64,000 bases of DNA. It comes from Balneolaceae bacterium. Lineage in GTDB: Bacteria > Bacteroidota > Rhodothermia > Balneolales > Balneolaceae. Every line of letters starts with the position of its first letter. Position 1 is the first letter of the stretch. The translations under genes were made by a program, and so were the position numbers. Below are positions 13,592 through 16,981 of the stretch, piece after piece. The DNA lies in the NCBI GenBank assembly GCA_007693745.1, contig REDA01000053.1, positions 1-64,000 on the forward strand, written 5' to 3'. Under the pieces are notes generated by a model that saw only the letters and a list, made by a program, of their open reading frames with translations, did no database searches and was not told the DNA's origin.

Positions 13592-14287
13592 ATGCGCATC
13601 CGGAACAGCACTTTTTTTAAAAAAATCTCAACAGATGAGAACTGGTTTCATAAGGTGGTTACCCGAACACTTCTCTTTCTGATGGTTATCGAGTGGGCAC
13701 TGCTTTTGTACAATCGGAGTTGGCTGGCCCTGTTTCTGATAACCTTGATCATTCTGACCCTCTTTGCTCCGGTTATCTTCAGGAAACAAATGGAAATTGA
13801 GATACCCGCCGAGTTTCATCTTATGGCTGTTTTTTTTGCTTTTGCCTCATTTTATCTGGGAGAAGTACACGATTTTTATCAAAGACTCTGGTGGTGGGAT
13901 ATTGCACTGCACACTACAGCCGGCTTGTTGATGGGGATACTTGGTTTCCTGCTCGTTTATATACTGAACGAGAATAAACGTGTGGAACTGCAGATGAATC
14001 CGGGATTCATTGCCCTTTTTGCTTTTCTCTTTGCGATTACAATCGGCACTCTTTGGGAAATATTTGAATTCACAATGGATCAGGTATTTGGAACCGCTAT
14101 GCAAAAACCGATGCTTGGGGATCCTTCCGGCCTCACAGATACCATGTGGGATATGATTGTGAATGCCCTTGGGGCTGCTGTTGTGAGTTTGACAGGATGG
14201 TGGTATCTGAAGAGAAAAGAACGGTTTTACATAAAATACCTCATCAACAAGTTCATCAAAAATAACCCCAGACTGTTCAAAAATTGA
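13592..14287 (+). CDS. Six-TM membrane protein, YjdF/DUF2238-like
   Basis: Integral membrane protein, 231 aa, with TM segments at about 25-41, 44-63, 74-92, 104-126, 139-161 and 188-206. The pattern W-W-W-D-I-A-L-H-T-T-A-G-L-L-M-G in one TM, G-T-L-W-E-I-F-E-F at the end of the next, then LTDTMWDMIVNALGA matches the DUF2238/YjdF group, where D-x-x-x-H, W-E-x-x-E-F and D-T-x-W-D recur. These polar membrane residues suggest a catalytic or ion-binding site. The C-terminus is very basic. It stands between icmF and the trp leader with gaps on both sides. Function is unknown. Confidence 0.7.
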   Translation: MRIRNSTFFKKISTDENWFHKVVTRTLLFLMVIEWALLLYNRSWLALFLITLIILTLFAPVIFRKQMEIEIPAEFHLMAVFFAFASFYLGEVHDFYQRLWWWDIALHTTAGLLMGILGFLLVYILNENKRVELQMNPGFIALFAFLFAITIGTLWEIFEFTMDQVFGTAMQKPMLGDPSGLTDTMWDMIVNALGAAVVSLTGWWYLKRKERFYIKYLINKFIKNNPRLFKN

Positions 14288-14341
14288 GACCGTTTTTTAT
14301 CTGCTGTTGCTTTTAATTTCAGGATGCAATAGTTTCAGGCA

Positions 14342-14410
14342 ATGGAAAAAATGATGAAAGTTTATTGGTGGAACCACTCACTTCGATCTGAAGCAGTGGC
14401 AATCGTATGA
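14342..14410 (+). CDS. trpL: trp operon leader peptide with tandem Trp codons
   Basis: A 22-codon ORF (ATG 14342; in-frame ATGs also at 14351 and 14354) ending in TGA at 14408-14410. From the third ATG it reads M-K-V-Y-W-W-N-H-S-L, with two adjacent Trp codons TGG-TGG at 14366-14371. A purine-rich GGAAAAA precedes the ATG at 14351. Position and codons are those of a transcription-attenuation leader: a ribosome short of charged tRNA-Trp would stall on the pair, directly ahead of the first hairpin arm (14374). The product has no expected function beyond this. An in-frame TAG at 14330-14332 limits the 5' end. Confidence 0.88.
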   Translation: MEKMMKVYWWNHSLRSEAVAIV

Positions 14411-14447
14411 GATAAAAATTTTGCGAAACAATGATCAAGCCCGCTGC
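14374..14447 (+). promoter_or_regulatory. trp attenuator: alternative pause (1:2) and antiterminator (2:3) hairpins
   Basis: Pause hairpin 1:2: CCACT (14374-14378) pairs with AGTGG (14395-14399) and CTTC (14381-14384) with GAAG (14390-14393). Antiterminator 2:3: GCAGTGG (14393-14399) pairs with CCGCTGC (14441-14447), with one G-U pair. The 2:3 pairing uses bases needed both by 1:2 and by the 5' arm of the terminator (14437-14445), so the structures exclude one another. Arm 1 begins 3 nt after the tandem Trp codons, so a ribosome stalled there would free arm 2 and allow readthrough. Confidence 0.85.
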
Positions 14448-14468
14448 AGTTACTGGAGTGGGCTTTTT
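14437..14468 (+). terminator. trp attenuator terminator (3:4 hairpin)
   Basis: AAGCCCGCT (14437-14445) pairs with AGTGGGCTT (14457-14465) as a 9-bp stem with one G-U pair. The loop can add CAG (14447-14449)/CTG (14453-14455). The stem runs into TTTTT (14464-14468) followed by AGTTT. The terminator sits directly upstream of the trpE ATG (14480), so it can only serve as an attenuator. When the leader is fully translated the ribosome covers arms 1 and 2 and this hairpin forms. Confidence 0.9.
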
Positions 14469-14479
14469 AGTTTAAAAAA

Positions 14480-15943
14480 ATGACCTTTGAACAGTTTAAA
14501 AATTTTGCAAAAAAGTTTACGGCAATCCCTGTAAGCAAACGAATGCTGGCTGATGTACTGACTCCGGTATCACTGTTCATGTCGATTCGGGAGAATGGTT
14601 TCTATCCATTTCTGTTTGAATCGGTCGAGGGGGGAGAGCATCTTGCACGCTACTCTTTTCTGGGCTCAAATCCTTACCAGATCCTGCAGTTAAAAGGAGA
14701 AGAGCTGAGCCTTTCGGTATCCGGTCAGATCTATGACCTCAACGAATCCTACTTTTCAGCGCTCCGGAGATTAACCAGTGAGCACAGGGAACCAAAGATT
14801 CCGGGACTACCCAGGCTCACAGGCGGCGCGGTTGGTTTTTCATCGTACGAAACCATCCGGGAAGTTGAATATCTTCCCGATCAGCCGGGCGACGGACTTG
14901 ATATACCGGAAGCGGTTTGGTCTTTTTATGATGAGGTGTATGCTTTTGATCATGTAAAACAGCAGATCGTTCTGATGAAGACGGTCTTTGTGGATAAGGA
15001 TACAGATCTTCAGGAAGCCTACGATAATGCATTACTGCGTCTTTCAAGAATGGAGGAGGTGGCCCTCAACTCCACAATCAAAGGCGGTGATTTTTCTCTG
15101 GATACTTCAATGCTGAAAAGCAATATGACAAAAGAGTATTTCCGGCGGATGGTCGATAAGGCAAAAGGTTATATTTTTGAAGGGGATATTTTCCAGGTTG
15201 TACTGTCCCAGAGATTTGAAGTACCGTTCCGGGGGGATAAGTTTACACTCTACAGGGCACTCAGAATGGTGAACCCTTCTCCCTATCTCTTTTTTCTCGA
15301 TTTCAGATCCTTTTCGCTCGTTGGCTCTTCTCCCGAGGTACTTGTCAGAGTCACCGGGGATGAAGCCAGGTTGCTTCCCATTGCCGGCACCAGAAAAAGA
15401 GGAGTAACGCACGATGAAGATATTGCCCTGGAACTGGAACTAAAAAATGATCCCAAGGAAATTGCAGAGCATATTATGCTTGTGGATCTTGGGAGAAACG
15501 ATCTCTCAAGGGTCTGCAAACCGGGTACGGTAAAGCTTGAAAGAAATCAGGCAATTGAACGGTTTTCCCATGTGATGCACATTGTATCTGACGTTGTGGG
15601 GGATTTGGAAAAAGATAAAGGCCCGGTGGATGCCCTTATGCAGTGTTTTCCGGCCGGTACGGTGAGTGGTGCACCAAAAATCAGGGCCATGGAGATCATA
15701 GACGAACTCGAACCTACACAACGGGGTCCTTATGCCGGTGCTGTCGGATACTTTGATTTTTCGGGCAATATGGATACCTGTATCGCGATCCGAACCATGG
15801 TTGTAACCGGGAATACTGTCTACATTCAGGCAGGTGCCGGCATTGTGGCAGACAGTCATTCACAAAGTGAATATGAAGAGACTAAGAATAAAGCCGGTGC
15901 ACTGATCGAAGCACTTAGTGTGGCCCTTGAAATTACACATTAG
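14480..15943 (+). CDS. trpE: Anthranilate synthase component I
   Basis: Converts chorismate to anthranilate using ammonia delivered by TrpG, the first step of tryptophan synthesis; 487 aa, cytoplasmic. The N-terminal regulatory domain carries F-L-F-E-S-V-E-G-G, the position of the L-L-E-S feedback-inhibition motif where Trp binds. The chorismate-binding domain (about 220-480) has GDIFQVVLSQRFEVPF, LPIAGTRKRG, LVDLGRNDLSRVC and AGTVSGAPKIRAMEII. It is the first structural gene after the attenuator, in the order E-S-G-D-C-F-B-A. The ATG at 14480 lies 11 nt beyond the attenuator's T run, so translation starts only on readthrough transcripts. Confidence 0.97.
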   Translation: MTFEQFKNFAKKFTAIPVSKRMLADVLTPVSLFMSIRENGFYPFLFESVEGGEHLARYSFLGSNPYQILQLKGEELSLSVSGQIYDLNESYFSALRRLTSEHREPKIPGLPRLTGGAVGFSSYETIREVEYLPDQPGDGLDIPEAVWSFYDEVYAFDHVKQQIVLMKTVFVDKDTDLQEAYDNALLRLSRMEEVALNSTIKGGDFSLDTSMLKSNMTKEYFRRMVDKAKGYIFEGDIFQVVLSQRFEVPFRGDKFTLYRALRMVNPSPYLFFLDFRSFSLVGSSPEVLVRVTGDEARLLPIAGTRKRGVTHDEDIALELELKNDPKEIAEHIMLVDLGRNDLSRVCKPGTVKLERNQAIERFSHVMHIVSDVVGDLEKDKGPVDALMQCFPAGTVSGAPKIRAMEIIDELEPTQRGPYAGAVGYFDFSGNMDTCIAIRTMVVTGNTVYIQAGAGIVADSHSQSEYEETKNKAGALIEALSVALEITH

Positions 15944-15970: not shown

Positions 15971-16981
15971 ATGACAAATAAGATTCAGATAATGAATAAG
16001 AAAAAAACGATTCTATCCGGCATTCAACCCTCCGGCAAGCTTCACATCGGTAACTATTTTGGCGCAATGAAGCAGCACATCCGTATGCAGGATGAAGGAG
16101 AGGCCTTCTATTTTCTGGCAAATTATCACTCACTTACGTCTGTAAATAACGGTGAGCTCCTGCAGAAATTTACTCTGGATGTTGTGCTGGATTATCTTGC
16201 ACTGGGTCTCGATCCTGAAAAATGTACTTTTTTTGCCCAGTCTGATGTTCCCCAAACAACGGAACTTGCCTGGATTCTGGGATGCCTGACGCCTGTATCA
16301 TTGATGGAGAAGGGGGTCTCATACAAGGATAAAGTGGCACAGGGCCTGGGTGCAAATATCGGACTCTTTACCTACCCTGTGTTGCAGGCCGCTGATATTT
16401 TGATCTACCATTCCGATCTGGTTCCGGTAGGAGAAGATCAAAAACAGAATATTGAAATCTGCAGAGACCTTGCAGGAAAACTGAACCGGCAGTACGACCG
16501 GGAACTGCTGGTGATTCCGGAAGAGTATATCGTCAAAAGTGTGGCGATAGTGCCCGGAATTGACGGCCGGAAGATGAGCAAATCGTATAACAACACGATT
16601 GAAATTTTTGACGAGGGAAGTTCACTCAAAAAAAGAGTGATGTCCGTTCAGACAGATTCCACGGCACTTGAACAGCCTAAAGACCCTGATAAGTGTAATG
16701 TTTTTGCTCTTATCAAGCTCTTTGCAGATGCTGATCTCATCAACGAAACAGCTCAAAACTACCGCAGGGGAGGTTATGGGTATGGTCATGCCAAAAAGGA
16801 ACTTCTTTCCCTCATAAATGATTATTTCGGGGAAGCCCGCGAAAAACGTAAAGAGCTGCAAAGAGACATCGGTTATGTAAAGGATGTTTTAAAGGAAGGG
16901 GGTAAAAAAGCCAGGATACGGGCTGAATCAGTTATGGAACCCATCCGTTCTGCAACAGGATTATTCAGAAGTTTTAAATAG
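15971..16981 (+). CDS. trpS: Tryptophanyl-tRNA synthetase, inside the trp operon
   Basis: Class Ic aminoacyl-tRNA synthetase charging tRNA-Trp, 336 aa, normal length. The HIGH-type signature is GKLHIGNYFGAM and the KMSKS loop is GRKMSKSYNN. GVSYKDKVAQG and YPVLQAADIL are family features. It sits between trpE and trpG with gaps of 27 and 35 nt, so it is probably co-transcribed and exposed to the attenuator. Shortage of charged tRNA-Trp would then raise both the biosynthetic enzymes and the synthetase. The start may instead be ATG at 15992, which begins M-N-K-K-K-T-I-L-S-G; I kept 15971 for the purine-rich GAAGAAGAGAT before it. Confidence 0.95.
   Translation: MTNKIQIMNKKKTILSGIQPSGKLHIGNYFGAMKQHIRMQDEGEAFYFLANYHSLTSVNNGELLQKFTLDVVLDYLALGLDPEKCTFFAQSDVPQTTELAWILGCLTPVSLMEKGVSYKDKVAQGLGANIGLFTYPVLQAADILIYHSDLVPVGEDQKQNIEICRDLAGKLNRQYDRELLVIPEEYIVKSVAIVPGIDGRKMSKSYNNTIEIFDEGSSLKKRVMSVQTDSTALEQPKDPDKCNVFALIKLFADADLINETAQNYRRGGYGYGHAKKELLSLINDYFGEAREKRKELQRDIGYVKDVLKEGGKKARIRAESVMEPIRSATGLFRSFK

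Follow-up and report, generated by a model that had tools for sequence, protein, structure and literature searches.

A probable ribosome-mediated transcription attenuator of the trp operon, conserved among Balneolales

The 64,000-nucleotide stretch of Balneolaceae DNA analysed here (the window) carries a trp operon, and the region just upstream from trpE raises the question of whether transcription of this operon is governed by a ribosome translating a short leader peptide. The original prediction had placed a leader ORF with a pair of TGG codons, a pause hairpin, an antiterminator and a terminator in this region, and direct reading of the sequence located each of them among the features listed below.

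14307..14309, + strand: TTG, the −33 element of a promoter of the Bacteroidota sigma-A type; of the 57 leaders compared, nearly all have a spacing of exactly 20 nt from the TTG to the −7 box
14330..14337, + strand: −7 box, TAGTTTCA (consensus TAnnTTTG)
14342, + strand: predicted transcription start, from promoter geometry; identical to the first base of the leader ATG
14342..14410, + strand: leader peptide ORF, read directly, 22 codons plus TGA at 14408-14410; MEKMMKVYWWNHSLRSEAVAIV
14366..14371, + strand: tandem Trp codons, TGG TGG; relatives mostly have WWW, some have WWWW, and genome G009 has a single W
14374..14399, + strand: protector or pause hairpin (1:2), CCACT 14374-14378 with AGTGG 14395-14399 and CTTC 14381-14384 with GAAG 14390-14393
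14393..14399, + strand: antiterminator arm 2, GCAGTGG, pairing with CCGCTGC 14441-14447 (7 bp, one G.U)
14437..14447, + strand: arm 3, common to the antiterminator and the terminator
14437..14468, + strand: intrinsic terminator, AAGCCCGCT 14437-14445 with AGTGGGCTT 14457-14465 (9 bp, one G.U)
14480..15943, + strand: trpE, anthranilate synthase component I (TIGR00564, above cut-off)
15971..16981, + strand: trpS, tryptophanyl-tRNA synthetase (TIGR00233, above cut-off), the only copy found in the genome
17017..22256, + strand: trpG, trpD, trpC, trpF, trpB and trpA, the rest of the operon

A short leader ORF with tandem Trp codons lies 5′ of a trp biosynthesis gene, as expected for this class of regulator, and the ORF extends through arm 2. 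The 1:2, 2:3 and 3:4 pairings are mutually exclusive, with 3:4 forming an intrinsic terminator, as in trp attenuators. The terminator (−19 kcal/mol) has an inner CAG/CTG and a T run at 14464-14468; the five T residues predicted to follow it are present, but two of them lie inside the stem, and the shortness of this run counts against the attenuator reading. The predicted structures were recovered by folding, the minimum free energy structure of 14335-14480 containing both the protector hairpin and the terminator. The fold of the window alone is modest (−34 kcal/mol, z −1.5), its outer protector stem is weak (z about 0), and the window hairpin is a shorter, local form of a protector hairpin that is longer in relatives. 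Judging from the sequences, the layout of this leader is not due to chance, a point decided by the comparison across relatives and not by the lone fold.

We consider the element very probably to be a ribosome-mediated transcription attenuator of the trp operon, assigned on its sequence to an uncatalogued branch of the trp peptide leaders; the E. coli-type mechanism originally proposed is supported by the layout, and by conservation and covariation in related genomes. RNA polymerase would begin transcription at the leader ATG or no more than a few bases away, and a ribosome would load on the 5′ end of the RNA and follow the polymerase. With charged tRNA-Trp scarce, the ribosome would stall on TGG TGG (14366-14371) and cover arm 1, so that arm 2 (14393-14399) would be available for pairing with arm 3 (14441-14447); this 2:3 pairing would block the terminator and allow trpE-trpS-trpGDCFBA to be transcribed. 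With sufficient charged tRNA-Trp, the ribosome would reach the stop codon (14408-14410) and cover arm 2, so that arm 3 would pair with arm 4 (14457-14465) and transcription would end before trpE.

The ribosome positions were represented in an equilibrium masking model that ignores pausing, in which the RNA is cut before arm 4 and the ribosome footprint is barred from pairing. With the ribosome on the Trp codons, arm 3 was held by upstream sequence in 57/57 leaders (mean 0.81), in agreement with the original proposal that stalling there frees arm 2; the mean was 0.47 when the ribosome had reached the stop codon and 0.44 for the RNA alone. The corresponding values for the window were 0.87, 0.29 and 0.86. 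The naked window RNA favours the antiterminator (0.86), and the shut state of the window would therefore depend on a ribosome at the stop codon covering arm 2. In about half of the relatives the at-stop value was not below 0.5, which counts against the attenuator reading. In the model, the long protector hairpin of many relatives gives a shut state without a ribosome.

The comparison set consisted of trpE upstream regions from relatives of the order, giving 57 leaders (the window and 56 others). An ATG-started leader with WW, WWW, WWWW or WCW was present in 56 distinct sequences, including that of the window, G009 providing one more with a single Trp codon; 55 of the 56 other regions have two or more neighbouring Trp codons, most often WWW, and the window leader has two where relatives mostly have three. 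The G009 leader (locus L136), MKMNLNTIIKSWRGPFLMAVAVV, retains the stems and the promoter. A terminator was found in 57/57 leaders (median −18 kcal/mol), a count to which that of L120 was added by hand. Arm 3 starts 87-108 nt past the leader ATG, while the distance from this ATG to trpE ranges from 137 to 230 nt; because arm 3 keeps to this range despite the variable distance, it is the geometry of the leader that is fixed.

These loci also bear on a simpler explanation, that the hairpin only terminates transcription of the upstream gene (13592-14287) and the small ORF with its pair of Trp codons is a product of chance. That gene does end only 55 nt before the leader, but it adjoins trpE in only 1/34 loci compared (a few of them with too little upstream sequence) and in G011, whereas nearly all loci retain the leader with its Trp codons and the terminator; a promoter is also predicted between this gene and trpE. 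We regard this explanation as highly improbable.

Support for an attenuator was also obtained from the pairing of the arms. The arms of each genome pair better with each other than with those swapped in from other genomes, for the leader/protector (z −10), antiterminator (z −8) and terminator (z −11) pairings, with 0/5000 permutations as good for each of the three; this test is conservative, as close relatives share both arms, yet relatedness was only partly corrected. Swap tests were used for the leaders from outside the genus (alignment A2) because MAFFT misaligns their terminators. The outer protector stem has undergone compensatory changes, with AUGAUAC/GUAUCAU in L003, AAACGUA/UACGUUU in L013, AAUAGUU/AACUAUU in L006 and AUGGUUU/AAACCAU in L014. 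In the genus alignment, 95% of cells were paired and six pairs had changed on both sides, with 0/500 shuffles as good, and the pairing was lost when the structure was slid along the alignment as a control. All seven pairs of the antiterminator form in 26/26 genus members, the 2:3 structure being 100% paired in genus alignment A1. Genomes G018 and G015 (loci L036 and L037) belong to the same genus as the window. Trp codons and pairing are both kept in relatives, where their absence would have refuted the original prediction.

The longer protector hairpin of relatives involves leader codons 4-8 and the Trp codons, together with the stretch after arm 2 or the stop codon (Stouffer z −12), and within the genus it is conserved and shows covariation. 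The stop codon of the leader is frequently located in the loop of this hairpin, or close to it, in families f3 and f4. The outer stem was tried as a separate fourth helix and rejected, folding showing it to be an extension of the 1:2 protector hairpin. A covariance model built on the genus found one strong copy per genome, 5′ of trpE, and recovered leaders in other families outside its training set (E down to 1e-14 in 184 kb). The window scored 76.8 bits, the lowest value among genus members with a trpE leader match (99-147 bits for the others).

In G001 and G003 the leader ORF stops before arm 2, and the arm-2 sequence is nonetheless kept; as this sequence is retained without coding, the RNA rather than the peptide is conserved there. 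This observation is relevant to the possibility that the leader peptide works in trans in the manner of Sinorhizobium peTrpL, with attenuation secondary. Sinorhizobium meliloti provides a precedent for such a role in the product of a leaderless trpL (PMC7298713), but the peptide of Balneolales is variable outside the Trp run and its C-terminal part follows arm 2, the very part lost in G001 and G003, where the RNA remains. A primary role in trans is accordingly most unlikely, though the peptide may have one in addition to attenuation.

Regulation without ribosome stalling has to be considered as well, with a Trp- or tRNA-binding RNA (riboswitch or T-box) or a TRAP-type protein selecting the hairpin. 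The Balneola lineage (L029, L051-L054 and L056), with a promoter and a terminator and no Trp leader, may respond to some other input. No Rfam riboswitch or T-box match was obtained at threshold in the window, including with the T-box covariance model, and TRAP was found in none of 21 genomes, with matches in control genomes; the tandem Trp codons, moreover, have the same position within the leader in nearly all genomes. We therefore judge a switch of this type very unlikely for the window and retain ribosome-mediated attenuation. TrpR was likewise absent above cut-off from the 21 genomes and detected in control genomes; candidates in G004 and G041 were below cut-off, carried stops and were not accepted.

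No other promoter-coupled short leader with a terminator was found in the window, nor any leader comparable to that of trp at the hisG, pheA or ilvB loci of the genus. Near hisG in G035 (L209, minus strand, about 2257) lies a short ORF, MMAPAHLHHHCVHHHQA, likely a His leader peptide; a TTG is present upstream, and the terminator scan found none.

The position of the promoter suggests how the leader might be translated. The leaders carry a TTG-N20-TAnnTTY promoter with 3-8 nt between the end of the box and the leader ATG. A strict form of this pattern (box with at least 4/6 matches, TTG 20-21 nt before the box and 4-8 nt to the ATG) was found in 56/57 Balneolales leaders and in 9/9 further Balneolaceae, with control frequencies of 2.7% (about 3%) for shuffled sequences and 0 for the reverse complement; in the window it occurs before only 1/72 long ORFs. 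It was also present in 13/19 other members of the class and in 7/20 members of other classes. In Flavobacterium psychrophilum, the −7 box occupies positions −12 to −5 relative to the transcription start (PMC9723704), and applying this spacing to the window box places +1 at 14342. The predicted promoter thus ends just 5′ of the leader ATG, and not beyond 14465, where a start would have been at odds with the original prediction. By the same geometry, the leader RNA of relatives would have about 0-4 nt of 5′ UTR, and the leader mRNA of the window is probably leaderless, with the ATG at its very first base. Such transcripts are uncommon in Bacteroidota, in which 3.7% of mRNAs have 5′ UTRs under 10 nt (PMC7366714) and 5.5% are leaderless (PMC9723704). 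If leaderless, trp attenuation would operate here without the need for Shine-Dalgarno pairing, which would suggest how tight timing between ribosome and polymerase arises in a phylum hardly using Shine-Dalgarno sequences.

The genes behind the attenuator include trpS, the second gene of the operon, which across the order, and as far as Rhodothermales (loci L032-L065), is flanked by trpE and trpG; it directly follows trpE at nearly all of the order's loci in which this could be seen. A single trpS was found in the genomes tested, in two pieces on separate contigs in G006, except for the 62% complete G009, in which there was none. A search upstream from trpS gave no sigma-A-type promoter in the window and only weak candidates in three relatives. 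As trpS lies behind the attenuator and no internal promoter was found, the tRNA-Trp-charging switch probably controls the charging enzyme too, that is, the trpS of the cell. An only trpS behind the switch would constitute a charging-feedback loop, which is directly testable. The chances seem to us about equal for and against the full reading, in which an order-wide and largely class-wide variant of the attenuator combines a leaderless leader peptide RNA with control of the cell's only trpS, so that feedback would act on tRNA-Trp charging and not on Trp synthesis alone, in a phylum mostly lacking Shine-Dalgarno sequences and with few leaderless mRNAs.

Among the closest described systems is the Bacteroidete trp peptide-leader family (Bacteroid-trp, RF01692), published in 2010 (PMC2864571), which occurs like the window leader in the same phylum and before the same gene, with a leader peptide containing Trp codons followed by a terminator. 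The window gave no match to RF01692 (gathering threshold 49 bits), even at E values up to 10, and there was none up to E 0.5 in nine relatives tested. Loci L199, L203 and L204, from another class of the phylum, do match it, and their −7 box lies 18-20 nt from the ATG, versus 3-8 nt in the order of the window. RF00513 (Trp_leader), the E. coli trp attenuator, ranked first among 4227 families for a match at the expected position (21.8 bits, E 0.041), but the gathering threshold of 41 bits was not reached by the window or by relatives (23.6-26.5 bits). A match to RF00513 on contig C6 of the same genome (E 6.9e-4) was rejected because the sequence there is the 3′ end of an unrelated gene together with its terminator.

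The four-arm logic is common to the window and E. coli. The trp leader of E. coli has a conventional 5′ UTR that includes a Shine-Dalgarno sequence, whereas that of the window is predicted to be leaderless and its ORF also runs through arm 2. In S. meliloti, the RNA of the trpL/rnTrpL attenuator begins with the leader peptide ATG, as predicted for the window, and its initiation is free of Trp-dependent repression (PMC7298713); this species is an alphaproteobacterium in which leaderlessness was measured rather than predicted, and its trpL controls trpE(G), whereas the window attenuator precedes a full operon with trpS. Attenuator leader peptides on leaderless transcripts are also known for leuL, thrL and metL of Streptomyces lividans (PMC8079986), one of the Actinobacteria, with 17% leaderless transcripts, such mRNAs being rare in Bacteroidota. 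Leader-peptide attenuation has been suggested for F. psychrophilum (PMC9723704).

The kind of attenuator is thus already known, also in Bacteroidota; the window branch is absent from Rfam, although an earlier description of it is possible. The leaderless start and the link to trpS would, if confirmed, make the window attenuator a variant. In the phylum sample, Trp-rich leaders, mostly with terminators, were found in about 19/26 class members not belonging to the order, as well as in about 20/32 genomes of other classes, and were missing in several families. Leader-peptide attenuation of trp is accordingly widespread in Bacteroidota and not a proteobacterial speciality, and the Rfam models miss its Balneolota branch. 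The original description of a full example in the FCB group as notable is only partly right, given RF01692, the suggestion made for F. psychrophilum and the Trp-rich leaders across much of the phylum.

Further observations were made at individual loci. L176-L185 and L197-L207, from other classes, have Trp-rich leaders, several with W.WWW, and the spacing from the −7 box to the ATG is longer in several. The Balneola-type loci L029, L051, L052, L053, L054 and L056 keep the TTG-N20-TA promoter and the terminator, with no Trp-codon leader; a conserved sequence resembling CACTAGTG ahead of the terminator, and CCTCCAAAGGTTG in some of these loci, may be another sensor or a relic. Upstream from trpE in L125 (G056), a Trp leader was not found and a terminator-like hairpin is present. 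Finally, L076 and L085, from MAGs labelled Deltaproteobacteria, contain a 33-codon ORF with EWWW 5′ of trpE, possibly a further leader.
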